A DNA stretch of 64,000 bases from Pseudomonadota bacterium (GTDB lineage: Bacteria > Bdellovibrionota > UBA1018 > CAIMNF01), in contig JAIXOQ010000007.1 in assembly GCA_027486675.1 (NCBI GenBank), positions 1 to 64,000 on the forward strand. The letters are read 5' to 3'. This document shows, piece by piece, positions 208 to 20,119 of the stretch; within the stretch, counting starts at the first letter, position 1; every line of letters begins with the position of its first letter. The notes below the pieces were generated by a model. The model did no database searches and was not told the DNA's origin. It was given only the letters and a program-made list of their open reading frames with translations. Made by a program: the position numbers and the translations under genes.

Positions 208-1707
208 CTAAAACTGCCCTTGCACAAGCCACCTACAACGATCAAGCAAGGAACTCCCCGAAGGCACGATGGACTTCAGTCGCTCAAGCCTAAGAGCGAG
301 GATCTTCTGTTTTATCTGAGGGTCTAGTCTTCTTGGGAAAGGTACACTGTAGAACTCGTCACGCTCTGCATAGACATCTACCAATGCACTCTTGATGTTC
401 GGCCAGCCCTGCTTTTGTTCAAGGATCTTCATCAGCGTCTCCGATGATAACTTCTGCAGGACTGCCCTCAATGGGCTCTCAGGTATTACCTCCCAAGAGG
501 TAGACGTCTCTTCTGCCAGCGATTGATCTAATGCGTACCCAAAGTCGTGCGCACCACCTAACTTGAGGGCCGCGAGGAACATACTATCGATATCCGGTGA
601 ACCGTAGGCCTTTAATCGATCTAAGTAAGCATCCCACCACTGAGCCTGATCAAACCCATCGGAGAGTGAACCCAAGGCCCCAAGTGCAACGATATCCTCA
701 ATGGATGCCTTCGGTGTTCGGGCCAAGAGTTCTATACGAAACCTCTCTGCCCCATACTGATCCTTGACCAAATCAGAGCCGAAATAAAGTTCCACTAAAG
801 TATTAGTACGCTCAAGAAAGAGACGAGCGATTTCAAATGGAGTAATGACGCCCAGCTCTTCGATTCCTTCTTTGAAGCTTGAGTACATAGATGCGAGAAC
901 GACACTGCTGGCATTCTGAATCAGTGTCTTCATTTCTGATGCATCAAACACCATCAAGGGCGGTCTGCCTGAATTATTTAGGAATTTCTTAAAAGCAATC
1001 CGACCCGAGATCTGGTCCTCACCCATGAGGACGACTTTCTTAAACTGTTCCACGGAACCAAACATCCCTTGAAGCTCTTGCGCTTTTTTCAGGAGCTCTG
1101 CGATGTCGCGGTTGTGCAAAGTTTCAGGTTGGGAGGCTCTGACTCGATTCATCTCCAAAGATGGACTGCCCGAGTAATCTACAGACTCAAGCACACGCAC
1201 CCAATCTTCCCGAAGATCTAACTCACGAATTACGTGCATGGGCTCTGAGTGAAAAAGAAAGATCTCATACTTCGATATCGCATCGATAATCCGAATTTTG
1301 CATTCGGAAGTCGCAAGCAGACGCACGAAGTGGGCATGACGATGCAAGTAGCCCCGCTTAAGCAACCTTTGGTAAAGCGCTTCTGCAGTCCACGCCTGAC
1401 TCCCCGAGGGATCTGGCTGCCTTCCAGTCTTTGACGATTTGGCTCTCTGAGAGTTCTTCATCTCTAGAGATGCAATGGCTACTTCCCTTGAGGTATTGAG
1501 CTTCTGCATCGCCGCTTCGGATCCGCCTTTATCCGGATGATACTGTTTGGAAAGTTTTTTATATTTTTTACGGATCTCGCCTTTTGTAGAGGTATTAGGT
1601 AGACCCAAGAAAGAGAAAGCATCGGCGATCTCTTGAGGGGTGTAGTCCCGGACCGCAAAAGCTGGCGTCAGGATGAGATGAGAAATAACAACAAAAACAC
1701 TTAACAT
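208..1707 (-). CDS. Exported J-domain protein of unknown function
   Basis: The 499-residue product begins with a Sec-type signal peptide (residues 1-17, ending AFA) followed directly by a J domain at about 22-85. The HPD tripeptide that stimulates Hsp70 ATPase is at residues 57-59, inside QYHPDKGG. No G/F-rich linker or zinc-finger repeats follow, so this is a class III J protein. The remaining ~400 residues are mainly helical in appearance and not recognised. Hsp70 is cytoplasmic in bacteria, so a J domain behind a signal peptide is odd: the hydrophobic start may instead be a membrane anchor leaving the J domain in the cytoplasm, although the short N-terminal charge pattern does not settle this. 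Same strand as the carotenoid operon but 95 bp away from it. Confidence 0.75.
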   Translation of the reverse strand: MLSVFVVISHLILTPAFAVRDYTPQEIADAFSFLGLPNTSTKGEIRKKYKKLSKQYHPDKGGSEAAMQKLNTSREVAIASLEMKNSQRAKSSKTGRQPDPSGSQAWTAEALYQRLLKRGYLHRHAHFVRLLATSECKIRIIDAISKYEIFLFHSEPMHVIRELDLREDWVRVLESVDYSGSPSLEMNRVRASQPETLHNRDIAELLKKAQELQGMFGSVEQFKKVVLMGEDQISGRIAFKKFLNNSGRPPLMVFDASEMKTLIQNASSVVLASMYSSFKEGIEELGVITPFEIARLFLERTNTLVELYFGSDLVKDQYGAERFRIELLARTPKASIEDIVALGALGSLSDGFDQAQWWDAYLDRLKAYGSPDIDSMFLAALKLGGAHDFGYALDQSLAEETSTSWEVIPESPLRAVLQKLSSETLMKILEQKQGWPNIKSALVDVYAERDEFYSVPFPRRLDPQIKQKILALRLERLKSIVPSGSSLLDRCRWLVQGQF

Positions 1708-1802: not shown

Positions 1803-3386
1803 TTAGAGCAAAACATTGGTCGAGAGAAAATTCGAAGTGCCACCCGAAAGGATGCCTTTGATCGTCTCTTTACCCAATTCATCTTGTTTGGCTGCAACCA
1901 TCGATCGAATACTAAACGCCCTGAGAGCGTCGAACACGCTGAGCGTCCCTTCAGCAGAATCTTTGCGACCGGTAAAAGGAAAGACATCTGGACCACGCTG
2001 ACACTGCGAATTTAAATTGATCCGGCACACTTGATTTGAAAGGCGATCAATCATTCTCCCGACGATTTCAGGATCCCTGCCAAATATACTGACTTGCGCT
2101 CCAAAGTTCGAATGGACGATATAGTCCTCGACCTCACTCAGTTGGCTAAATCGAGCGATAGGGACCACGGGTCCAAACTGTTCTTCTTGCGCGAGCCGTG
2201 AGTTCAGAGGGACGTCCATCAGAACTGCGGGTTTAAAAAGGTTTCCGTACTTTGCTCCGTATTCGGGAGTGAGGATTTTTGCACCTTTTGCGACTGCGTC
2301 CTCAATCAACTCCTGCAAATAGGCGGGCTTATTGAGATCAGGCAGCGGAGTGATTTGTACACCCTGGTCCCAGGGCATGCCGGCAATCATCGCATTCACT
2401 TTTTTGAGCAGAAGTTCGGTAAAAGCATTTGCAACCGACTCGTGGACCAAAACAAATTTTAATGCAGTGCATCTCTGTCCATTGAAGGAAAGAGCCCCTT
2501 TGATACACTCTGACACCGCGTTCTCCAGATCAGCGTCGGGAAGCACGATCGCTGGATTCTTAGCGTCTAGGCTGAGGACAGTACGGAAGCGATGGGGCTG
2601 AGGATGGTCAGTTTTGATTTTGCTGGCCACTGCACTGGACCCAATAAATGCAAGGACATCAATCCTTCCAGAACGAATGACCGGACCAACGATTTCTCGG
2701 CCTTTGCCATTCACAATGTTGACGACGCCCGCCGGAAAACAATCTCGAAATGCTTCCAGCAGAGGATCCCAAAGGAGCTGTCCGTACCGTGCAATCTTGA
2801 CGACGACTGTGTTGCCCATAATGAGAGCAGGAATCAGTGTCGTGAAAGTCTCATTGAGAGGATAATTATATGGCCCCATGCAGAGTGTCACACCCAAAGG
2901 CGCTCGCCTAATTTGAGCCATGATGCCACCTGAGAATGCAAAGCGTGCCGAATCACGATCCAGCCGTTTCACTTCCTCTACCGTGTCGTTGATGTATTGC
3001 ACAGTGCGGTCAAATTCGTTTTGGGCATCCAGCCATGCTTTACCGATTTCCCACATGAGGTAGCGACAAACCAGCTCGCGCTGCAAAACCATCTGATCTC
3101 GAAACGCAATGACGGCACTCACGCGTACTTCCATTCTTGCCGTTGGCCAATCACCTAGGCCCTTTTGCCAAGCAGAATGCGCCGCATCTGCTGCGGTCTG
3201 AAGAATTTCTGCACTTACGTTAGCAGTCCGACCAAGCACAACCTGCTTGCCTTGGTCGGCGCAAGAACTTTGCACTTCGCGGGTATCAAAACCTGAAGTC
3301 TGGATTTTACCTCCGATGAGAATCCGCGCTAATCCTTGTGGAACCTGAGGGAACGGTGCAAGAGGCTGATCTTTAAATTTTTCCAT
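1803..3386 (-). CDS. Aldehyde dehydrogenase, GapN-like, last gene of the retinal operon
   Basis: This 527-residue protein is an NAD(P)-dependent aldehyde dehydrogenase. The catalytic cysteine lies in FNGQRCTA (around residue 305), and the C-terminal third carries the CQRGPD and GRKDSAEGTLS blocks typical of non-phosphorylating glyceraldehyde-3-phosphate dehydrogenases. The usual ELGGK segment with the general-base glutamate reads LSLDAKN, so that glutamate is Ser, with Asp two residues on. The ATG overlaps the end of blh by 14 nt and has AAGGA about 12 nt upstream, so it is probably translated from the retinal operon mRNA. Two readings are possible: an NADPH-yielding glycolytic bypass, or an aldehyde oxidation linked to carotenoid or retinal cleavage. 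Family assignment is firm; substrate is not known. Confidence 0.85.
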   Translation of the reverse strand: MEKFKDQPLAPFPQVPQGLARILIGGKIQTSGFDTREVQSSCADQGKQVVLGRTANVSAEILQTAADAAHSAWQKGLGDWPTARMEVRVSAVIAFRDQMVLQRELVCRYLMWEIGKAWLDAQNEFDRTVQYINDTVEEVKRLDRDSARFAFSGGIMAQIRRAPLGVTLCMGPYNYPLNETFTTLIPALIMGNTVVVKIARYGQLLWDPLLEAFRDCFPAGVVNIVNGKGREIVGPVIRSGRIDVLAFIGSSAVASKIKTDHPQPHRFRTVLSLDAKNPAIVLPDADLENAVSECIKGALSFNGQRCTALKFVLVHESVANAFTELLLKKVNAMIAGMPWDQGVQITPLPDLNKPAYLQELIEDAVAKGAKILTPEYGAKYGNLFKPAVLMDVPLNSRLAQEEQFGPVVPIARFSQLSEVEDYIVHSNFGAQVSIFGRDPEIVGRMIDRLSNQVCRINLNSQCQRGPDVFPFTGRKDSAEGTLSVFDALRAFSIRSMVAAKQDELGKETIKGILSGGTSNFLSTNVLL

Positions 3387-4293
3387 TCGTTCTAATCCTT
3401 TGCTTGAGCAGAATCATATGGGGCGCTGTCAGCGCCGCTATTCCTACGAATAATGAAGAGACCCATGTCTTTTCTACGAAACGAAAGTCGATACGCCATA
3501 CTACGACGAAAAACATGAGAAGTACCGCAATGGTTGGCAAGACAGCTGATTGAATCAAAACCTCACGGGGAACCTTCGAATGGAGTGCAAACGTTCGTAA
3601 GATGTGTCGTGGACTGTGCATTGCGCAAAAATAAACCGTAAAGGCAACGAGCGGCTTCACCGTTAAAAAGAGGATCACATTACAGAGGAGAATCGCTGGA
3701 CCTAAAAACCGTCTCGGCGAGGGTTTGTAAAAAGACCCTACGAAAGAGTGAACAATCGAGATGACTGCGCCGACGATACAAATCCTGCTGAGTGGCAACA
3801 AGAAGAGGCCAAAGGCCTCTGCACTTTCCTGCGTAGTAATTAAGGTGAAATAATCAGTCACCTCTTTCGAATAGAATAAAGAGGGAAGCAGAATGATGGA
3901 CGCCCCGTACATGATGCGGATAAAAGGTGTGTCTTCAGCGGGAAGGTCTTCTGAAAAGTGAAGAGCCGAGAAGAAAAGGAATAGAGCAAAAAAAAAGCTT
4001 GGCACTAGCATCCACATCAAGATTACGAAACCTGCGATCATCAAGTAACACACAACAAATAAAGCCCATTTCAATACACCCTTAAGCTTAAAAAGCTCCT
4101 GGGCATAAAAAGCATCAAAAGATCCGTGAGGCACTCCGAGGAGGAGAATGGTGATGGATCCAATTAGGGCTATCGTTGACGGGTTTAGAGTTTGAAAAGC
4201 AACACTCAAGACAGCGATCAGCAGCGCAATCACGCAAAAAATAATCCCCTGAACTCGAATTAGACTTTCGTGTTTATCCACGTAAACCTTCAC
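3373..4293 (-). CDS. blh: Beta-carotene 15,15'-dioxygenase (Brp/Blh family)
   Basis: A 306-residue polytopic membrane protein of the Brp/Blh family, which cleaves beta-carotene symmetrically to two molecules of retinal. The family's histidines are visible in GVPHGSFD (H56, D60), in ALHFSED and in CAMHSPRH, and are expected to bind the catalytic iron. Hydrophobic segments alternate through the whole chain. The start overlaps crtY by 20 nt and the stop overlaps the aldehyde dehydrogenase by 14 nt. Its position at the end of crtEIBY and opposite a proteorhodopsin makes retinal supply its clear role. Confidence 0.95.
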   Translation of the reverse strand: MKVYVDKHESLIRVQGIIFCVIALLIAVLSVAFQTLNPSTIALIGSITILLLGVPHGSFDAFYAQELFKLKGVLKWALFVVCYLMIAGFVILMWMLVPSFFFALFLFFSALHFSEDLPAEDTPFIRIMYGASIILLPSLFYSKEVTDYFTLITTQESAEAFGLFLLPLSRICIVGAVISIVHSFVGSFYKPSPRRFLGPAILLCNVILFLTVKPLVAFTVYFCAMHSPRHILRTFALHSKVPREVLIQSAVLPTIAVLLMFFVVVWRIDFRFVEKTWVSSLFVGIAALTAPHMILLKQRIRTNGKI

Positions 4294-5449
4294 GAACCCG
4301 GGAAATCTCGTTTAAGAAGAGGCCCGCAGGAAGTGCCAGAATAATGCGAATACAGTCGAACACCGTTCCATTCCCACTTAAGAATCGAATCAGTCTCATC
4401 GGTGCAACATTTCTAAATAGTCTCAAAAATAATGATGGGGCAATAGAAGGGTGATTTTTCAGGACTGATATAAAGATAGCGTCCATCCACCTGATCAGCC
4501 AAGGGTCTGAGGAGTGGTGGATTGGACGTTTCCTCAGATGAATTTCTCGCGCACACAAGGATGCCCACTTTTGTATCCGCTGGAACGCATAGCCCGTGCT
4601 CGGTCGGGCTGCCCCGGAATTCACGCCTACCCTCACATAACTCGGGTCTGAAACAGCCTTTTCAATAGGAATCCCCATGGGTAAAATCCCGGATTCTTTC
4701 CGAAGGATTCTGAAGCGTGAGCCTTTCGAATGTTTCTGAACCATCCTCTCTAAATTATCTTTGAGGTCTTCCTGTTGGAGTGGATCTGGACCAAAAACAG
4801 TCGCTTCGATCAGCGCACGGTTCTTCGAGAAAGGGATGACATAAGTGAAAAAAATCGGAAAGGAAGTGTTTTCCTCAAACGACATCAGTTCCACTGCGGT
4901 TGGATCAAATACTTCTTCTTCACACTCGATTTCGAATCCGTAGAAAGACTGATAGAGGCCCGTTCGAACTGGTAGACTTGAAGTCGGAGGTGGACGCGTA
5001 TCCACGATAGCTTTCGCTTCGTAGATCATTGCCTGCGTATGGACTTGCCATCTTTGGTTCTTCCGGATCGGATTTCCAAGAATTTCCGCTCCAAGAACTA
5101 ACTGAGTTTCTTTCTGCGCACGAATCACCTTGAGGCAGTGGTCGTAGAAAAGATGAGATGCAAGAACCGTGTATGGGGCATCCTGACATGGAAAACAAAC
5201 ATCTGCTGCCCGATCATTGCCGACTCTGACTCTGAGTTGAGGAAATAGTTGTTTCGATATGCTCGGATAGTAGTCCGTACCATTCGACCAATAACCCCAA
5301 GTTCGGTCATTTTCGTAGTGGATACGTTTTTCAAGAATGGTCACTATCGGTGGATTTTCCGTGGCAGTACGAACGAGTTCGACCGCGAGGCTTAAGCCTG
5401 CGCAGCCACCCCCTAGAATAAGTAAATCAACTTGCATTTTCGCTGGCAT
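4274..5449 (-). CDS. crtY: Lycopene beta-cyclase
   Basis: The 391-residue product is a CrtY-type flavoprotein that cyclises both ends of lycopene to give beta-carotene. Residues 7-18 form the dinucleotide-binding motif (LLILGGGCAGLS). Other family features are DRTWGYW-like sequence around residue 48 and the GVNSGAARPSTGYAF segment near 275. It overlaps crtB by 23 nt upstream and blh by 20 nt downstream. The order crtB-crtY-blh is the usual arrangement in marine proteorhodopsin clusters. Length and motifs are complete. Confidence 0.93.
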   Translation of the reverse strand: MPAKMQVDLLILGGGCAGLSLAVELVRTATENPPIVTILEKRIHYENDRTWGYWSNGTDYYPSISKQLFPQLRVRVGNDRAADVCFPCQDAPYTVLASHLFYDHCLKVIRAQKETQLVLGAEILGNPIRKNQRWQVHTQAMIYEAKAIVDTRPPPTSSLPVRTGLYQSFYGFEIECEEEVFDPTAVELMSFEENTSFPIFFTYVIPFSKNRALIEATVFGPDPLQQEDLKDNLERMVQKHSKGSRFRILRKESGILPMGIPIEKAVSDPSYVRVGVNSGAARPSTGYAFQRIQKWASLCAREIHLRKRPIHHSSDPWLIRWMDAIFISVLKNHPSIAPSLFLRLFRNVAPMRLIRFLSGNGTVFDCIRIILALPAGLFLNEISRVREGLRG

Positions 5450-6272
5450 TGATTCGAGGCAATCTCCAGTACTGAGATGTAGTGAAGAATTGAAATAGTA
5501 TTTTTACAGTCATGAATGCTTTTTCGAGCGGGCTCACTTGAGCCCGAAAACTCCAGTAATCAAATCTCCGCTTCGTAAGTTTTATGCCGATCTGCCGGTA
5601 GAGCGCGGCGGCTACCAGAATCGCTATACGAGCGCGAAGGGGAAGATAGACAATGCCTCTCAGACCGCTTTCATAGTAACGATCTGCTGTCCCAAGTAAA
5701 GTCGATAACGCGCTCCGAAGAACCGGTTGCTTTTCAAGAGGGGGTGAAACGAGATCAGTAAGCGACAAATCTCCGACTAGCGTCAGAGGAAGGTATCGTC
5801 TTCCTAAGTGAGCATCTGTCGCGACATCTCGACAGATATTCGTAATCTGCATCGCGATGCCGAGATCGACTGCATGTTTCATTGCTCTTTGATCTCGAAC
5901 CCCCAAAACGTTACACATCATCAAACCGACCGTTCCAGCCACCTGGTAGCAGTAATTCAGGAGTTCTTTTTCGTCTTGAACTTCCACTGCACCAAGATCG
6001 GATAGAACACCTTCCGTAAGATCTATGAAGGCTTCTCGACTGACTTCAGCCTCTTTGAAAAAGTCACTCCTCAGCACGCTTTCTTTGAAAGCGCCGAGCT
6101 CCTGGGAGGCTGCGGTCCTGGAATGAGCCTCATCGACAATGTCGTCCACTTTGCGGCAGATTGCATACATTTGCGCTGCCTGAGCTGCCTGTTTCCGATC
6201 GAGGAGATAGCTTGCCCAATAAAACGTCTTTCCCTTTTCCCGTAAAATAGACTCTGCGTTTTGAAGGTTCAC
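5427..6272 (-). CDS. crtB: Phytoene synthase
   Basis: A 281-residue squalene/phytoene synthase that condenses two geranylgeranyl diphosphates head to head into phytoene. The two aspartate-rich substrate-Mg sites are visible as DDIVDE (about residue 43) and NICRDVATDA (about 146), the latter followed by GRRYLP. The ATG overlaps the crtI stop as ATGA, implying coupled translation. It precedes crtY with a 23-nt overlap. Nothing unusual in length or motifs. Confidence 0.94.
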   Translation of the reverse strand: MNLQNAESILREKGKTFYWASYLLDRKQAAQAAQMYAICRKVDDIVDEAHSRTAASQELGAFKESVLRSDFFKEAEVSREAFIDLTEGVLSDLGAVEVQDEKELLNYCYQVAGTVGLMMCNVLGVRDQRAMKHAVDLGIAMQITNICRDVATDAHLGRRYLPLTLVGDLSLTDLVSPPLEKQPVLRSALSTLLGTADRYYESGLRGIVYLPLRARIAILVAAALYRQIGIKLTKRRFDYWSFRAQVSPLEKAFMTVKILFQFFTTSQYWRLPRINASENAS

Positions 6273-7813
6273 AAATTCTTTACCGAAGGAATCATTCGAT
6301 CGATGAGCTTTGCAGAACAGAGTACACCAGGAAGACCTGCGCCAGGGTGAGTCCCCGCTCCCACCAGGTAAAGGTTTTTGATACCCTCTGACTTGTTATG
6401 GAATCGGAACCAAGCCGACTGACGAAAAATGGGCGCTATAGAAAAACCTGATCCATGAACACTGAGGTAGTCGTCGGCGAAGTCTTCGGGTGTCTTGTAA
6501 AAATCTGAAGTGATCGTTTCCTTTAACCCGGGAAGGATCGTGTCGGATAACGACTGAACGATCCGGTCTCTCAAGCGGGGACCTTCCACGTTCCAATCCA
6601 CTCCGCTTTCAAGATTCGGGACTGGGCAGAGGACATAAAAACTATCACAGCCCTCGGGTGCAAAAGTAGGATCCGTCGCGGTTGGGCGATGAAGGTAGAG
6701 CGAAAAATCTTCCGCGAGAATTTTACGGTCGAAGATATCTTTGAGGAGCTCTCGGTAACGCATGCCGAGCCAGATCGTATGATGGGCTACAGATGGATAT
6801 GTCTTAGTTGTCCCAAAATAAAGAACGAATAAGCCCATCGAGAATTTCGCTGCTTTCAACTTGAGTTGCGACAGAGGCGACTGATCGCTCCTCTTCACCA
6901 TCGACCTGTAGAGGTGCGCTGCATCTGCGTTGGAGACGACGAGATCTGCCGAGAGTTTTTCACCAGACTCAAGGAACACGCCATTCGCGACGCCTTCTGT
7001 TATCGATATCGACTTGACGGTAGTCCGGAGGCGGATGTTGATTCCCTGTCTTTTCATGAGCTTCCCGAGCTCGGAAGAGATGGCACCTGTTCCGCCTTTT
7101 GCGAAGAAAACGCCGTAAGCACGCTCTAGAAAGTGGATTAGAGCATAGATGCTCGTCGTGTCAAACGGGTTACCGCCAACGAGTAAGGGCTGGATCGAGA
7201 ACGCTTGTTGCAGTTTCGGGTGACTGAGGTAAGTCGTCACCATACCCCAGACTGTCTTATAGCTTTGAAGTTTCACTAACCGAGGAATCTGCTTCAACAT
7301 CGTCTTCAGTTCATGAAAAGGCGCGTCTGATAATTCTACGTATCCGACGTCATAAATTCGCTTTGAATGTGCAAGGAGCTGTTTATAACCCTCGACGTCC
7401 TTGGGTTCGATTTTACGAATCTCCGCTAATGTATCTTCAAGCGTGCCTCCGTAATCAAATGTCGATCCATCCGGATAATAAAATCGGTACCAGACCTTAA
7501 GAGGAATGAGGTCCAGGTGATCAGACAATTTTTCGTGAAATAACTGAAAAAGCTCTTCAAAAAGAAACGGAGCCGTAATCACGGTGGGCCCCGCATCGTG
7601 CCGAAAGCCGTCTTTTTCAAAAACTTGGCCGCGTCCCCCAAGTTGTTCACAGCGATCAACCAGGGTAACTTGGTAGCCCTTCGCACGGAGACGGAGGGCG
7701 GCCGCTATGCCGCCAAAACCTGCGCCAATAACGATGGCTGACGGCCCAGAAGATCTTTGAGATGACGACTGAGACAATACTTCTGGTGAACGATTTGCTT
7801 CGAAGTTTTTCAT
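6269..7813 (-). CDS. crtI: Phytoene desaturase (CrtI type)
   Basis: A 514-residue CrtI-family FAD protein that introduces four double bases' worth of desaturation into phytoene, yielding lycopene. The N-terminal FAD motif IGAGFGGIAAALRLRAKG lies at about 27-44, preceded by a Ser-rich leader. The C-terminal signature NLYLVGAGTHPGAGLPGV, characteristic of bacterial CrtI, is at about 478-496. The start overlaps crtE as ATGA and the stop overlaps crtB the same way. CrtI enzymes are peripheral membrane proteins; no transmembrane segment is needed or evident. Confidence 0.95.
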   Translation of the reverse strand: MKNFEANRSPEVLSQSSSQRSSGPSAIVIGAGFGGIAAALRLRAKGYQVTLVDRCEQLGGRGQVFEKDGFRHDAGPTVITAPFLFEELFQLFHEKLSDHLDLIPLKVWYRFYYPDGSTFDYGGTLEDTLAEIRKIEPKDVEGYKQLLAHSKRIYDVGYVELSDAPFHELKTMLKQIPRLVKLQSYKTVWGMVTTYLSHPKLQQAFSIQPLLVGGNPFDTTSIYALIHFLERAYGVFFAKGGTGAISSELGKLMKRQGINIRLRTTVKSISITEGVANGVFLESGEKLSADLVVSNADAAHLYRSMVKRSDQSPLSQLKLKAAKFSMGLFVLYFGTTKTYPSVAHHTIWLGMRYRELLKDIFDRKILAEDFSLYLHRPTATDPTFAPEGCDSFYVLCPVPNLESGVDWNVEGPRLRDRIVQSLSDTILPGLKETITSDFYKTPEDFADDYLSVHGSGFSIAPIFRQSAWFRFHNKSEGIKNLYLVGAGTHPGAGLPGVLCSAKLIDRMIPSVKNL

Positions 7814-8694
7814 AGTGCCTGGACTATCTTTTTGGAGAGACTTTGAAGATATAAGCCAGAGCTACCAGGCAATTCGCCCGCGATTCTGTGAGCGGACTCA
7901 AAGTAGGACCGGGCCAGCACCTTCATTTCTTCTTTGGGTGAGCCCTTCCTGCCATTCTGTTTGATCAGAGTAGAAATGTTCAAGCTCGCAGGTCGTTCCC
8001 TATTACCCAAATCATCTTCTAAATCGACCAAATCATCTATGATCTGATAGCCAACTGAAAAATCCTCTGCTGCTTCAATAGCGAGCTTCGATGCCTTTCG
8101 ATCGCCCATCAGAAGAAGCGGTAGCTCGAGTGGTAACGCGAGAAGTGCGCCCGATTTCGCTTTCACGATATCGACATATTCATCGAGAGAAAGATCATTG
8201 GGGCTTCTGACGGTCAGATCCTTACACTGGCCGCGGGTCGCATTCGCAATACACCGATGCACAGCATTTAAAAGATCAGGCAGGATTTGCGGGTTCGATA
8301 CCGCTGAGATTGCGACATAAGCACAAGAAATCATCAAATCTCCAGCACACACCGCGATGCTCGGAGAATACTTGGTCCATACTGATTTTTCTTGATGGCG
8401 GGTTTTTTCAAGGTCTTGAAGGTCATCGTGAATCAAGGAAGCGTTATGCAAGAGCTCAACGCATGCACTGAGTGCGATCGCGTCGAACTTCGTAAGTCGC
8501 AGCGTCATTGACATCTCCATGCAGATGCGAGCGCGAGTTCGACTACCCCCAGTCTTGAGGTGATAGAGAGCAGCCTCAACCGCGAGGCTCGCGGATCTTT
8601 CGGTATGAGCGCCGGACGTCGCAGCGATGATCGTGATCATCTGACCTTCGATCTCTCTCATCCACGTCTCTGTATCCGTTTGGAGCTGACTCAT
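7810..8694 (-). CDS. crtE: Geranylgeranyl diphosphate synthase
   Basis: A 294-residue trans-prenyltransferase, first gene of the retinal operon. The first aspartate-rich motif is DDLQD at 90-94 and the second DDLVD at 221-225. Small residues (Ala85, Ser86) sit at positions five and four before the first motif, where bulky aromatics would stop elongation at farnesyl, so a C20 product is expected. GGPP then feeds CrtB. The ATG at 8694 faces the proteorhodopsin gene across a 118-bp divergent promoter region. Confidence 0.92.
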   Translation of the reverse strand: MSQLQTDTETWMREIEGQMITIIAATSGAHTERSASLAVEAALYHLKTGGSRTRARICMEMSMTLRLTKFDAIALSACVELLHNASLIHDDLQDLEKTRHQEKSVWTKYSPSIAVCAGDLMISCAYVAISAVSNPQILPDLLNAVHRCIANATRGQCKDLTVRSPNDLSLDEYVDIVKAKSGALLALPLELPLLLMGDRKASKLAIEAAEDFSVGYQIIDDLVDLEDDLGNRERPASLNISTLIKQNGRKGSPKEEMKVLARSYFESAHRIAGELPGSSGLYLQSLSKKIVQAL

Positions 8695-8812
8695 TATTTA
8701 CAAGAAACCTTGAATCCAAGAAAATACGCTATAGACTTCGAAAGTGAAACACATAAAGGTTTCGAGTCGAAAGATTCGGGAATTGAAAAACAACATAAAA
8801 AGGACACATGTT
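8695..8812. promoter_or_regulatory. Divergent promoter region between crtE operon and proteorhodopsin
   Basis: These 118 bp separate the two divergent transcription units, so both promoters should lie here. No clean sigma-70 pair is visible: the best plus-strand candidate, TTGAAT (8710-8715) with TATAGA (8730-8735), has a 14-bp spacer, too short for a normal promoter. A perfect palindrome is present at 8760-8772. A Shine-Dalgarno AAAAGGA at 8797-8803 fixes the proteorhodopsin start at 8813. Confidence 0.6.
8760..8772. promoter_or_regulatory. Perfect 13-bp palindrome, operator candidate
   Basis: TTTCGA-G-TCGAAA is an exact inverted repeat with a one-base centre, and a related imperfect copy (ACTTCGAAAGT) lies about 15 bp upstream near 8736-8746. 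Position between divergent proteorhodopsin and retinal genes makes a shared regulator site plausible. No regulator gene is adjacent. Confidence 0.4.
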
Positions 8813-9613
8813 ATGTATAGAAGCCCTACTGCGCTTAAGACGAAATTAGCACTGATTGCGAGCACTCTTCTCGCTCCAGTTTCTTCTGTGTTTGCTTCAG
8901 ATGGAGTCGTTTTGAAATCAAACGACCTCGTAGGGATTTCCTTCTGGTTTATCTCGATGGCCCTCGTCGCTTCCACCGTTTTCTTTTTCATGGAATCGCT
9001 CAGAATGGCCGGAAAGTGGCGCACCTCGGTCGTCGCTTCAGGACTCGTCACACTCGTAGCAGCCGTTCACTATTTCTACATGCGTGACGTGTGGGTCGCG
9101 ACCGGAAGCACTCCTACGGTATATCGCTACATCGACTGGATCATCACAGTGCCTCTTCTCATGGCTGAGTTTTATCTGATTCTATCGGCAATTACGAAAG
9201 TACCAGGGGGTGTCTTCTGGCGCCTGATGATCGGCACCATCGCGATGCTCGTGTTTGGATTCGCGGGTGAGGCAGGCCTGCTCAACGTGACCGTTGCATT
9301 CATTCTCAGTATGCTGGGCTGGATCTACATTATTTACGAAGTATTTGCTGGCGAAGCTTCGAAGATCAGCGCAAGCAAAGCCACCCCTGGCGTTCAGTCC
9401 GCATTTAAAACAATGCGCCTGATCGTGACCTTTGGCTGGGCGATCTACCCAATTGGATATGTACTTGGATACTTGGTCGGAAACGACCCAACGGCGAGCG
9501 CAAATTCATTGAACCTGATCTACAACCTCGCAGACGTTGTCAACAAGATCGGATTCGGTTTGATCATCTGGGCTGTCGCTTCACGCGAAACAGAAGCATC
9601 GACAGGAAAATAA
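8813..9613 (+). CDS. Green-absorbing proteorhodopsin (light-driven proton pump)
   Basis: A 266-residue type I rhodopsin with signal-like N-terminus and seven hydrophobic helices. Helix C carries the proton acceptor Asp108 in RYIDW, the spectral-tuning position Leu116 (Leu means green absorption; Gln would mean blue) and the donor Glu119. His86 matches the His that pairs with the acceptor, and Lys245 in DVVNKIGFG is the retinal Schiff-base lysine. These match D97, L105, E108, H75 and K231 of the SAR86 protein. The frame is open from 8744, but AAAAGGA lies 9 nt before the ATG at 8813. Retinal comes from the divergent crt-blh operon. A rho-independent terminator follows at 9644. Confidence 0.97.
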   Translation: MYRSPTALKTKLALIASTLLAPVSSVFASDGVVLKSNDLVGISFWFISMALVASTVFFFMESLRMAGKWRTSVVASGLVTLVAAVHYFYMRDVWVATGSTPTVYRYIDWIITVPLLMAEFYLILSAITKVPGGVFWRLMIGTIAMLVFGFAGEAGLLNVTVAFILSMLGWIYIIYEVFAGEASKISASKATPGVQSAFKTMRLIVTFGWAIYPIGYVLGYLVGNDPTASANSLNLIYNLADVVNKIGFGLIIWAVASRETEASTGK

Positions 9614-9643
9614 TCATTCATTGATCTTGAGTGAGTCAACTCG

Positions 9644-9680
9644 AGCGCCCAAGGCATAAATAAATGTCTTGGGCGCTTTT
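9644..9680 (+). terminator. Rho-independent terminator after proteorhodopsin
   Basis: Arms 9644-9657 (AGCGCCCAAGGCAT) and 9664-9677 pair along 14 positions with a single G-T wobble and a short A/T loop, and are followed by T-rich sequence. It ends the proteorhodopsin transcript before the next gene at 9699. Confidence 0.85.
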
Positions 9681-10965: not shown

Positions 10966-12153
10966 ATGTGTGTAAGCGCCTTCACCGGAACAATGGCAAC
11001 CCTGCTCATCGGCGCAACCCTTTCTGCTCCTGCGTATTCCGGTCATTGCGACGAAGTGGCGAGTCATGGAACCCCCCGTCCGACGTCCCTAGGCATTCAG
11101 GTTTCAGAAGAGTTCTACGCTCTCCCGATCATCCGAAGGCTCCGCGCAGATCATCCGGACTTTATCCCTTCACCTGAGATCAACAACAATGACCCGATCA
11201 CGGCGCACTCTTGGGCCGAGAACGATCCATCGGTCCGCTGGCTGATTTCGCCTTTGCGCCAACTGCGACCCTGGATCATTTCGGAATCACGTCATACAAA
11301 AGAAGCCTTCAATCTATACAGCCTTCCTCAGGCACATTCGCTCGTGATTGCGCACATGGACTACCTCATGAGCTATGCAAAGAAGAATCACCCACACCTC
11401 TATCCTGGCATCCAAAGGATGACTGCACTGCACTACATGAATCTTGAAAAGCACTACGAAGCAATTCTTAGAAACTGTACCAATCGCGCCGATGAAATTA
11501 TGCATTACATGAACCGGATCAAAGGCTACGAAGGAGAGGTTCGAGCCTTAATCGAGCTTCCCAATGTTTTAGATGTTTCGTTTCGCTTGAATGCCGGATC
11601 TGCAACAGCACGCTCTAAGAAGGAGGCAAAAGAGTTTTTTGAACAGGTGGCTACCCGGATCAATCACAACTTGCATAGAGTCTTACAGAACAAGGCACGT
11701 TTTGCTCAAGATTTCCCAGTGCTCTACAAACGAGTCGAATCACTGCCATTGATCGGCAACAAGGAGGCTATTTTACGAAGTCGAATCTTAGGCGAAAAGG
11801 AGTTTGATATCCTCTACCTTCATAATGGCGAGCTCTCAATCGCCGAAGTGAAGAATTTGAGCCAGACACTTGACCTAGAGACCTACAAACCGGATGTCAG
11901 CTCCTTCAGCGAAGGAAATGCACGTAAAGGGATGGAACTGAATACCTTAGATAGCGTTTTTAGAGAATTCGTAGAGATACAAAAACTGACTCTTCACCCA
12001 GTTCAACCCGACAAGCCTCTTTTTAATGTGGCTGGATACTTTCCCAACTCCGTTGAGCCTCCACTCATCGCTGTCATGAACAACCAGGGCATTGTCGTCA
12101 TTTCCAGAAAAATTCCGGTCGTCTCGAAGTCAGGAGCAAGCAATAACCACTAG
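10966..12153 (+). CDS. Exported PD-(D/E)XK nuclease-like protein, copy 1
   Basis: A 395-residue protein with a Sec signal peptide (about 1-25). A helical middle region leads into a nuclease-like core: Glu191 in GYEGEVRAL, Asp281 in EKEFDILY, and Glu294-x-Lys296 in IAEVKN. The spacing E, D, 12 residues, ExK is that of the PD-(D/E)XK fold. A later helix (FREFVEIQKL) and a GYFPNS motif are shared with the next gene. GAGG lies 4 nt before the ATG. The core looks catalytically intact, so DNA or RNA cleavage outside the cytoplasm is a reasonable guess. Not recognised as a named family. Confidence 0.6.
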   Translation: MCVSAFTGTMATLLIGATLSAPAYSGHCDEVASHGTPRPTSLGIQVSEEFYALPIIRRLRADHPDFIPSPEINNNDPITAHSWAENDPSVRWLISPLRQLRPWIISESRHTKEAFNLYSLPQAHSLVIAHMDYLMSYAKKNHPHLYPGIQRMTALHYMNLEKHYEAILRNCTNRADEIMHYMNRIKGYEGEVRALIELPNVLDVSFRLNAGSATARSKKEAKEFFEQVATRINHNLHRVLQNKARFAQDFPVLYKRVESLPLIGNKEAILRSRILGEKEFDILYLHNGELSIAEVKNLSQTLDLETYKPDVSSFSEGNARKGMELNTLDSVFREFVEIQKLTLHPVQPDKPLFNVAGYFPNSVEPPLIAVMNNQGIVVISRKIPVVSKSGASNNH

Positions 12154-12325: not shown

Positions 12326-13237
12326 TTGGCCCCCGGATCCTGGGGCGCACAAGATCCATCCCTTTTGTGGCTTTCAAAGGCACTCGATGATGCAAAGGAC
12401 GCATTCATCCGTCAGCAGGAAGAAAATGGAACGATTACACAGGCCTCCGCCTTGGCGCTGGTCGATTTCGCTATCGCTCATTGCCAGTATCTTGAGAGCT
12501 ATGTGCACCACTATCACAAACCGTACTTGGCTTCGGCCCGCCGTATGGTTGCGCACTACCGGAGTTTATTTCAAGGAGCGCGAGCGCGCGCACAGTCCCA
12601 ACAAAGGCATTTAGATAAATTCATTAGTGCCATGATGCCAAGCCTCTCTGGCTACAGAGGTGAACTTCTATCTTTGACTGAGCTCCCCCATATCCGCATT
12701 TTTGGCTTTCACTTTGACGATGTGATCGGTACCACACAGCAATCCTTGCTTCGAGAGACCAAAGACTTCCATCAAAAAATTCTGGCAGCTCTTCCGAGTC
12801 GACTCAAACAAGCATCGGACCAAGCATTCTTTGACGTTCAATACCCCTGGCTTTCTTATGTGGTTCGCAATGAGTTATCGAAGCAAGATCGATTCGAGAA
12901 GCTTCTTCACTGGATCACACATGAGAAAGAGTTTGATTTTCTGTTAAGGTCCGACGGTCGCTATGTTATTATTGAAGTCAAGAATCGTAAAGATAGAGTT
13001 GGGGTCAAAGATTTAACCCACCCCCGAAAGAGAAGCCGAGGCGTTCGAACTAAATCCATGTTGCAGCAGTTTGACGAGTTGGTTGAAATTCAAATGCTGC
13101 TTGCGGGGGGTCCTTGGCCGAACGGTAAGGCGCCCTTTGGAGTTGCAGCCTATTTTCCAAACTCGATCAGCCTCGAGGCGGAAGCGTTGCTTAAAAGACA
13201 TGGAATAAGCGTAATCCCATCCTCGGTAGTAGAATAA
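12326..13237 (+). CDS. PD-(D/E)XK nuclease-like protein, copy 2, probably 5'-truncated
   Basis: This 303-codon frame is a diverged paralogue of the preceding gene. Shared landmarks in the same order are SWGAQDPSLLWL, GYRGELLSLTELP (Glu113), HEKEFDFL (Asp204), IIEVKN (Glu217, Lys219), ELVEIQML and AAYFPNS. The acid-to-ExK spacing is identical to copy 1. It lacks the signal peptide. The only usual start is a TTG at 12326 with no Shine-Dalgarno. Similarity seems to continue upstream to a TGA at 12299-12301, and the same frame holds a TAG at 12284 and an ATG at 12230. Either the 5' end has decayed or a cytoplasmic version survives; the long intact frame argues against a very old pseudogene. Confidence 0.5.
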   Translation: MAPGSWGAQDPSLLWLSKALDDAKDAFIRQQEENGTITQASALALVDFAIAHCQYLESYVHHYHKPYLASARRMVAHYRSLFQGARARAQSQQRHLDKFISAMMPSLSGYRGELLSLTELPHIRIFGFHFDDVIGTTQQSLLRETKDFHQKILAALPSRLKQASDQAFFDVQYPWLSYVVRNELSKQDRFEKLLHWITHEKEFDFLLRSDGRYVIIEVKNRKDRVGVKDLTHPRKRSRGVRTKSMLQQFDELVEIQMLLAGGPWPNGKAPFGVAAYFPNSISLEAEALLKRHGISVIPSSVVE

Positions 13238-14963: not shown

Positions 14964-16199
14964 CTAGCGAGACCACTTCCTTTGATACTCGCCATCGGGA
15001 TCATAGATAGACGCTTGTTTGACCGTGTTAAAGACCCTATTCCTCGGATCCTGCCCCACGCCGGCAAGATAAGACCAGTTCCCCCAGTTGCTGGACGCAT
15101 CGTAGTCAATGAGTTGCTGCTCAAAATACTGAGCTCCAAGCCGCCAGTCGACCCCAAGGGTCTTAGCAAGATAGCTCGCGACATTCTGCCGGCCCCGATT
15201 GGACATCCAGCCCGTGGCATTGAGTTCCCGCATATTGGCATTCACAAAAGAATCATTGGTTTCGCCGACACTCCATCTTTCAAATTCCCGGCTCAGGATA
15301 GGTGGCGGATTCAATCCACCAAAGATTTTAACTCCCGACTTTTCGGCGATGAACTTGAAATAATCGCGCCAGAGTAATTCAAAGAAGAGCCAATAAGTCG
15401 ATTCGTTACTCATCCGCTCCCTCTCATAGCGCTGCAGCTCGAAGTAGACCCGTCTTGGCGATAGAGAACCTGCGGCAAGATAGGGGGAGAGCTTGCTTGA
15501 GTCCTCCCAATCCAGGAGACCATTGCGAGTCTCCTTGTAGGTTTGGATCCGGTTTGATCCCCAAAGGTAGGACTCAAGACGCTTTAATGCCTCCGCTTCA
15601 CCTGCACGAATTTTTTCATTCTGAAATCCCCTACTGATCAAGGATCTTATCTCTGCGGTAACATCGAGGGATTCAATATCACCCTCAATAGGAAATGGAT
15701 GAGGAAGCGTTTTCGGCGCGGGTGACTCTAAACGCACCTCAAGACTTGCCTCAACTTTCTTTCGAAACTGCGTGAATACCTCAGGCAAGTCCTTAAGCGG
15801 AAAGGACAAATCATCCCTGTGAAGGAGCGTATTTTGGGGACCAAAAGGTCTAATCCGACCGCCAAGCTGCTTTGTCAGCAAGCTCTCCTCCCTTTTCTCC
15901 TCGGTCATCTGTGATGCCGAAAAATACACTCGATCTACCTTCGAACTCTGGACAAGATTGGGTAGGAAGGTTGCCGCCGACTGATGTTGAACCAAAACTA
16001 TTGTCCCAAGCGTCTCCAGCTGTTTCTTAAATTCATCTAAAGACTGAAGTAGAAAAAGCTTACGAAATCCGCCTGCTCTTAAAAAGGATGGCGTAGGACA
16101 CCAAACAATGATCCCTTCCTGGGAATGCTGACCAAACTCAAAAAGAGTTTGATTGTCATGAATCCGCAAGTCATCACGCACCCAATAGATCGCTCTCAT
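14964..16199 (-). CDS. CRY-DASH cryptochrome/photolyase
   Basis: A 411-residue member of the CRY-DASH branch of the photolyase family, which repairs cyclobutane pyrimidine dimers mainly in single-stranded DNA. The N-terminal antenna domain opens with IYWVRDDLRIHDN. The C-terminal FAD domain has TGWMSNRGRQNVASYLA, DYDASSNWGNW and the GVGQDPRNRVFNTVKQ block, all diagnostic for DASH. The ATG at 16199 is preceded by AAGGAAG; a start ten codons upstream is possible but lacks a site. It is divergent from the second photolyase with 47 bp between start codons, so the two share a promoter region. Confidence 0.93.
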   Translation of the reverse strand: MRAIYWVRDDLRIHDNQTLFEFGQHSQEGIIVWCPTPSFLRAGGFRKLFLLQSLDEFKKQLETLGTIVLVQHQSAATFLPNLVQSSKVDRVYFSASQMTEEKREESLLTKQLGGRIRPFGPQNTLLHRDDLSFPLKDLPEVFTQFRKKVEASLEVRLESPAPKTLPHPFPIEGDIESLDVTAEIRSLISRGFQNEKIRAGEAEALKRLESYLWGSNRIQTYKETRNGLLDWEDSSKLSPYLAAGSLSPRRVYFELQRYERERMSNESTYWLFFELLWRDYFKFIAEKSGVKIFGGLNPPPILSREFERWSVGETNDSFVNANMRELNATGWMSNRGRQNVASYLAKTLGVDWRLGAQYFEQQLIDYDASSNWGNWSYLAGVGQDPRNRVFNTVKQASIYDPDGEYQRKWSR

Positions 16200-16246
16200 C
16201 TCATTTCTTCCTTTTCTGATCTTAAACAAGCCATAGAATCAAAGTC

Positions 16247-17785
16247 ATGCCTACTCGATTATCAAAGCAAGTGGCTCACGCCCAAAACGAGTTGACCCTC
16301 ATTCTTGGCAACCAGCTTTTCCATGACTTTTATGATTCAGGACCCTGTCTCATGGTAGAGGACCATGGGATCGCGACCCATTATCAGTACCACAAATTGC
16401 GAGTCCTTCATCAGTTTGTCAGTATGCGGGAATTTCGGGATCACCTCATTCATAAGGGACTAGAGGTCATCTACTTCGAATATCCCGATTCCCTGAAGCT
16501 TGGCAAAAATAGTTTCTTTGAGCGGTTATCTCTCGTTACAAAAGAGCACGATATTAAGACACTAAAAACTGCAAGAATTCCGGACGTTTCTTTTCGTGAG
16601 CAACTCATTGCCTGGGGCAAGGCGACTCAAGTCAATGTAGTCTTTATTACGTCCCCCCAGTTCCTCATCAGCGATGAGTACTTTGCGAAGTATTTAGGCA
16701 AATACAAAAAACCCTTCATGAAAAACTTTTATGAAGGCGTAAGGAAAGATCATCAGATTCTCTTAGACAAGAATAAAGAACCAGAAGGGGGCCAGTGGAG
16801 CTTTGATTCAGAAAATCGAAAACGACTTCCAAAATCAATCCAGATTCCTCTACTTCCCGTCTATAAACGTTCTCATCACCAATCTGTAGTTCACTCCCTT
16901 GTACAAGTGAACTTTGCAAAAAATCCCGGAAATTTGCCCGCCTTAGATGCAGACCTTTGGATTCCAACAAATCGAAAGGATGCCCTGTTATTCCTCAAGG
17001 CATTTCTATTAGAAAGATTCTCTCATTTTGGCCCTTATGAGGACTCAATCACGAGTGATTCTGACTTTGTATTTCATTCAGCGCTGTCACCGCTCATCAA
17101 CATCGGTCTCCTAAGTGCTGCAGAAGTCATACAACAAGCGATTACTCACGGTAAAATGAATAAAGTCCCAATAGAATCCTTGGAGGGGTTTGTTAGACAG
17201 ATCGTTGGATGGCGTGAATTCATTCACGGAATTCACCAGAATTTTTACGAAGAGCAAGCCAGAAAGAATTTCTTTAATCACCAACGTCTCATGAAATCCT
17301 GCTGGTACGATGGAACCACTGGGCTGCCACCGGTAGATGATGCAATTAAAAAGGCGAATCGTTTGGGTTACAATCACCATATTGAGCGATTGATGATCTT
17401 AAGCAACTGCATGCTTCTCACGGAAATTAATCCGACTGCAGTACATCGTTGGTTTATGGAGATGTTTCTTGATTCCTATGAATGGGTCATGGGGCCGAAC
17501 GTTTATGGTATGTCTCAGTTTAGCGATGGCGGCATCTTTGCTACAAAGCCATATATTTCAGGATCTAACTACATCCTAAAAATGAGCCACTATGCAAAGG
17601 GACCCTGGTGCGATATCTGGGATGGGCTCTATTGGTCTTTCATCAGCAAAAATATCGGCTTCTTTGAGAAGAACCCGCGGCTATCGATGATGCCCCGTCA
17701 GCTCCTAAGGATGGATCCAGCGCGAAAGTCTCGACTCTTCTCCTTGGCCCAAAATTTCCGGGAAGAAGTCTCTAGCATGGCGTAA
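16247..17785 (+). CDS. PhrB-like (6-4) photolyase family protein lacking Fe-S cysteines
   Basis: A 512-residue member of the bacterial FeS-BCP/PhrB photolyase-cryptochrome group. Family landmarks: LILGNQLF at the N-terminus, GGQWSFDSENRK near 181, GWREFIHG, NHHIERLM (the lesion-site His pair at 377-378), EWVMGPNVYGMSQFSDGG. The 4Fe-4S ligands of Agrobacterium PhrB are C350, C438, C441 and C454. Counting from the His pair, the first falls on Pro362; in HYAKGPWCD the next two fall on Ala450 and Pro453, and the loop before the last Cys (Cys455) is deleted. Only one of four ligands remains, so a cluster is unlikely. The FAD domain otherwise looks complete. Confidence 0.88.
   Translation: MPTRLSKQVAHAQNELTLILGNQLFHDFYDSGPCLMVEDHGIATHYQYHKLRVLHQFVSMREFRDHLIHKGLEVIYFEYPDSLKLGKNSFFERLSLVTKEHDIKTLKTARIPDVSFREQLIAWGKATQVNVVFITSPQFLISDEYFAKYLGKYKKPFMKNFYEGVRKDHQILLDKNKEPEGGQWSFDSENRKRLPKSIQIPLLPVYKRSHHQSVVHSLVQVNFAKNPGNLPALDADLWIPTNRKDALLFLKAFLLERFSHFGPYEDSITSDSDFVFHSALSPLINIGLLSAAEVIQQAITHGKMNKVPIESLEGFVRQIVGWREFIHGIHQNFYEEQARKNFFNHQRLMKSCWYDGTTGLPPVDDAIKKANRLGYNHHIERLMILSNCMLLTEINPTAVHRWFMEMFLDSYEWVMGPNVYGMSQFSDGGIFATKPYISGSNYILKMSHYAKGPWCDIWDGLYWSFISKNIGFFEKNPRLSMMPRQLLRMDPARKSRLFSLAQNFREEVSSMA

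Positions 17786-20119
<2,334 letters not shown>

Follow-up and report, generated by a model that had tools for sequence, protein, structure and literature searches.

A proteorhodopsin gene divergent from its retinal cassette, and a GapN-like aldehyde dehydrogenase gene behind blh, in a Bdellovibrionota genome

The DNA analyzed here (the window) is a stretch of 64,000 nucleotides from a draft genome assigned to the Bdellovibrionota (assembly GCA_027486675.1, contig JAIXOQ010000007.1). Six genes on its minus strand face a rhodopsin gene on the plus strand (Table 1), and all of them are intact on reading of the open reading frames. The genes crtE, crtI, crtB, crtY and blh are adjacent, lie on one strand and follow the order of known PR-crtEIBY-blh cassettes (PR, proteorhodopsin); the NCBIfam matches TIGR02734 and TIGR03753 both exceed their cut-offs. 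An earlier note on this DNA had described a complete retinal operon facing a rhodopsin, with overlaps of 4–23 nt from crtE to blh and of 14 nt between blh and an aldehyde dehydrogenase (ALDH) gene. Protein families, gene order and measured overlaps agree with that description.

Table 1. Features of the rhodopsin and retinal locus (positions in the window)
Feature	Position	Strand	Basis or remark
GapN-like ALDH, 527 aa; 14-nt overlap with blh	1803..3386	-	Pfam Aldedh, PDB ranking, motifs
blh, beta-carotene 15,15'-dioxygenase; 20-nt overlap with crtY	3373..4293	-	TIGR03753 blh_monoox, 153 bits (cut-off 95); Pfam BCD
crtY, lycopene beta-cyclase; 23-nt overlap with crtB	4274..5449	-	Pfam Lycopene_cycl, 158 bits
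crtB, phytoene synthase; 4-nt overlap with crtI	5427..6272	-	Pfam SQS_PSY
crtI, phytoene desaturase; 4-nt overlap with crtE	6269..7813	-	NCBIfam TIGR02734 crtI_fam, 572 bits
crtE, geranylgeranyl diphosphate synthase	7810..8694	-	Pfam polyprenyl_synt
118-bp stretch separating crtE from the divergent rhodopsin gene	8695..8812		both promoters expected here
Proteorhodopsin, green type, 266 aa	8813..9613	+	likely start ATG 8813
Terminator-like hairpin, 15 pairs, T-rich tail, 3' of the rhodopsin gene	9643..9678	+	consensus scan

The arrangement supports the view that the six-gene operon is compact enough for translational coupling, and one transcript presumably spans all six minus-strand genes. The junction between blh and the ALDH gene was examined in detail. 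The ALDH start agrees with the starts of its orthologues in an alignment, and the 3' end of blh contains a Shine-Dalgarno-like AAAGGA, 9 nt ahead of the ALDH ATG; hence the overlap is real and not an accident of annotation, and the ALDH is probably co-translated with Blh. Neither GC content nor GC3 sets the ALDH gene apart from its neighbors. Consensus scans for regulatory signals gave a weak sigma-70-like match on the plus strand (8697-8725), with no excess of such matches above chance. Terminator-like matches also occurred at chance level in total, the stem listed in Table 1 being by far the longest.

The rhodopsin protein matches Pfam Bac_rhodopsin, and green proteorhodopsins are its highest-scoring relatives in the PDB (281 bits). 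Its reading frame opens with GTG at 8744, and the more likely start is the ATG preceded by AAGGA. Numbered from that ATG, D108, T112, E119, H86, K245 and L116 match D97, T101, E108, H75, K231 and L105 of green proteorhodopsin (GPR), residues with established roles in that protein. The protein thus has the retinal lysine, the D97/T101/E108 set and the Leu105 (GPR numbering) of green proton pumps, in keeping with the earlier reading of Leu116 as green-type. By its residues it is a green-type pump, and proton pumping may be expected of it.

Beyond the rhodopsin gene, the segment 13244-20119 has the look of a photoprotection neighborhood. It includes a DUF2071 protein, a SOUL heme-binding protein, a DNA photolyase (14964-16229), a photolyase-related DPRP protein (16247-17785) and a KatG-type peroxidase (17879-20119). 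Between these genes and the rhodopsin, two plus-strand genes (10966-12153 and 12326-13237) encode proteins that are alike by eye and share a nuclease-reminiscent KEFD...EVKN-type stretch; neither protein has a Pfam match. On the other side, 95 nt downstream of the ALDH gene and on the same strand, the gene at 208-1707(-) encodes a protein that looks secreted or membrane-bound and has a J domain at its N terminus.

For comparison, 80 rhodopsin loci were collected from one-genome-per-species data using peptide patterns of the window rhodopsin, so that the sample leans toward relatives of that protein. All five retinal genes are present in 55 of these loci besides the window, in the order PR-crtE-crtI-crtB-crtY-blh, and crtE occupies the same place in 67 cassettes. 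Overlapping crt junctions had been considered as a special feature of the window, an idea discarded because overlap is the norm: it occurs at 42 of 49 crtI-crtB, 48 of 54 crtB-crtY and 49 of 51 crtY-blh junctions. The known cassette as such is therefore compact, with junctions that are probably coupled. The window shares its five-gene order and its overlaps with the cassettes of freshwater Methylophilaceae, Polynucleobacter and Opitutia (L002-L081) and of Vibrio campbellii, where the same gene set was acquired horizontally (PMC3380642); these cassettes are horizontally mobile and likewise carry a green-type proton pump.

Two traits set the window apart. One is the orientation of the rhodopsin gene, which usually leads the operon: every one of the 70 comparison loci that have crtE or crtI shows it co-directional, whereas in the window it is divergent from crtE. 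This is a variant of layout and not another system. A rhodopsin divergent from crtE-crtI-crtB is also found in two loci of the same phylum (L170 and L171); they differ from the window in that a single gene on the far side of the rhodopsin combines crtY with blh, the identity between the rhodopsins is only about 34%, and there is no ALDH gene.

The other trait is the GapN-like ALDH gene after blh. No ALDH gene lies 3' of blh in any of 61 loci with blh, 45 of which have at least 2 kb of downstream sequence, so the earlier remark that an ALDH falls outside the usual cassette holds. L058, L079 and L080 do have ALDH genes on the upstream side of the rhodopsin; their products are only 24-26% identical to the window ALDH and were rejected as orthologues. 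Matches to a retinal operon with an ALDH gene, in the portions of the literature that were accessible, concern engineered retinoid production and a Salinivibrio genome.

Fused genes of the kind seen in L170 and L171 make an observation of their own. Single CrtY-Blh reading frames of 655-671 aa adjoin rhodopsin genes in four genomes from two families of the same phylum (L133:8025-9995(-), L135:10233-12197(+), L170:7105-9117(+) and L171:10132-12141(-)). The only related fusion found in the literature searched is a four-domain CrtI-CrtB-CrtYcd-Blh protein of the protist Thecamonas (PMC10016063), and the CrtY-Blh fusions may merit separate study. Rhodopsins closer to that of the window were also detected. 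Two from the same order are 63% identical to it (L131:87-863 in G026; L132:3173-3949 in G050), with no crt or blh genes in the fetched stretches; both lie near contig ends, so their retinal genes may be located separately. A third, 67% identical (L168:8320-10046 in G236), has blh immediately after it in the same orientation, and the 19 kb retrieved there contain no further crt gene.

Among 369 genomes of the phylum, the ALDH (at least 49% identity) is found in 18 and a rhodopsin in 26, and the two are linked in the window genome only; in G028 and G235 both occur, each on its own contig. Five genomes of the same order have ALDH orthologues with 61-71% identity; the regions retrieved around these, two of them short contigs, contain no crt, blh or rhodopsin gene. 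No family relative was seen to carry the same crt operon, in a comparison that contained no congeners. The six-gene order was met once in the search across genomes, and the idea that it forms a conserved unit was not borne out. A blh protein search of relatives missed divergent blh genes that profiles found, hence lack of matches in that search is not evidence of absence.

The source of the cassette was approached through CrtI, which is 64-73% identical to its counterparts in most freshwater betaproteobacterial and Opitutia cassettes and only 44-45% identical to CrtI of two genomes in the window's own family. This difference speaks for a horizontally acquired cassette: crtEIBY-blh probably came from outside and is of the freshwater proteobacterial or verrucomicrobial type, as judged from sequence relatedness. 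In the crtI and rhodopsin trees, Polynucleobacter, Methylovirgula and Methylotenera come nearest, on long branches; the placement of the cassette lacks support and does not name a donor. A conserved insertion site marked by the downstream DnaJ-domain gene was also considered and set aside, as relatives gave only weak J-domain matches.

What the ALDH does is best approached through its relatives. When PDB sequences were ranked by phmmer, the top places went to eleven distinct GapN sequences (211-241 bits), followed by succinate-semialdehyde dehydrogenase (147 bits), while retinal dehydrogenases (ALDH1A) scored 133 bits at most. GapN is the non-phosphorylating, NADP-dependent glyceraldehyde-3-phosphate dehydrogenase. 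In an alignment with the Streptococcus mutans enzyme (1euh), the window ALDH conserves R103, Y155, R283 and R437, the substrate-phosphate ligands of that enzyme, and its catalytic C284 and N154 (S. mutans numbering); the window protein has the motifs GQRC and NYP. Identity to S. mutans GapN is about 35% over the aligned part, compared with 51-54% over the full alignment to two plasmid proteins. Orthologues are named as GapN by PGAP in Paraburkholderia, Cupriavidus and the P. aeruginosa plasmid pAFM-PA19-3158, and plasmid relatives with about 52-57% identity are called NADP-dependent glyceraldehyde-3-phosphate dehydrogenase where annotated.

Two of these relatives have glycolytic neighborhoods, in contrast with the retinal operon of the window. 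One plasmid relative lies directly behind pyk, and another is the X of a glpD-pyk-eno-tpiA-X-gpmI cluster. That cluster lacks an enzyme to convert glyceraldehyde-3-phosphate into 3-phosphoglycerate, and X fits the missing step. One feature departs from S. mutans GapN: the general-base glutamate (E250 there, Glu268 in ALDH numbering) is Ser in the window ALDH. All aligned relatives, including the protein of the glpD cluster, have Ser or Gly at this position and Asp or Glu two positions on. Because of this absence we call the enzyme GapN-like and not a proven GapN; none of the NCBIfam GapN models scored above cut-off for it. In the subfamily that lacks Glu268, the hydrolysis step may be carried out differently. 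The subfamily is widespread (Burkholderia, Cupriavidus, Hymenobacter and others), the site lying at about residues 270-280 of the window ALDH, and its chemistry seems of interest.

Altogether, we favor, with a probability of roughly three in four, a standard proteorhodopsin photosystem with a full retinal pathway that was gained horizontally and that captured a GapN-like ALDH gene at its 3' end. The Crt and Blh enzymes would lead from geranylgeranyl diphosphate through phytoene, lycopene and beta-carotene to retinal; retinal would load the rhodopsin, transcribed divergently from the crt operon, and protons would be exported in green light. The ALDH is most likely a GapN-like enzyme of sugar metabolism rather than a retinal enzyme, and its probable reaction converts glyceraldehyde-3-phosphate and NADP+ into 3-phosphoglycerate and NADPH and is not the oxidation of retinal. 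Such an activity would not make it the sole glyceraldehyde-3-phosphate dehydrogenase of the host, which also encodes a phosphorylating GAPDH (contig C33).

The place of the gene, directly behind the maker of retinal and overlapping it by 14 nt, invites the thought that the ALDH forms retinoic acid by oxidizing surplus or freed retinal, in detoxification or chromophore turnover. We consider this improbable. The nearest structures are GapN and not ALDH1A; GQRC stands in place of the ALDH1A motif GQCC; NYP and the GapN phosphate ligands are present; and Glu268, on which hydrolytic retinal dehydrogenases rely, is absent. Moreover, the orthologues reside in glycolytic clusters, and an ALDH beside blh is found in 0 of 45 cassettes. 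On these grounds a retinal dehydrogenase identity was rejected, and any suggestion, from the earlier note, of a role of the ALDH in retinal biology is not supported.

A somewhat better case, yet still a doubtful one, can be made for a selected coupling in which the GapN-like enzyme, under shared light-dependent control, provides NADPH that serves either the synthesis of isoprenoids and retinal or oxidative defense. GapN is a source of NADPH, made along with 3-phosphoglycerate (PMC4518329), the overlap with blh contains the Shine-Dalgarno-like site, and the photolyase, its relative and KatG are close by. That the retinal cassette is wired to central carbon metabolism, with an NADPH-making enzyme as the translationally coupled partner of Blh, is nevertheless unlikely on the present comparison: the linkage is known from one genome, the two genomes that carry both genes keep them apart, and an ordinary GAPDH is present too. 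A junction created by misassembly is the least probable explanation by far. The genome is a draft in 33 contigs and the linkage is unique, but both genes run intact through the junction, the ALDH start is that of its orthologues, the overlap holds a Shine-Dalgarno-like sequence, and GC and GC3 are continuous on a contig of 83.7 kb.

The simplest history, retained here, is therefore that the operon captured the ALDH gene at its 3' end. With its six genes the operon is one local assembly, a freshwater-type retinal cassette plus a GapN-like gene. The photosystem belongs to a known kind, and its ALDH tail and divergent rhodopsin make it a local variant. The locus presents a mobile light-harvesting cassette that, in a new lineage, has been rearranged and has gained a neighboring gene. 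It also corrects the obvious supposition that an ALDH encoded next to blh acts on retinal. Were the coupling selected and not accidental, rhodopsin phototrophy would be linked to NADPH supply.
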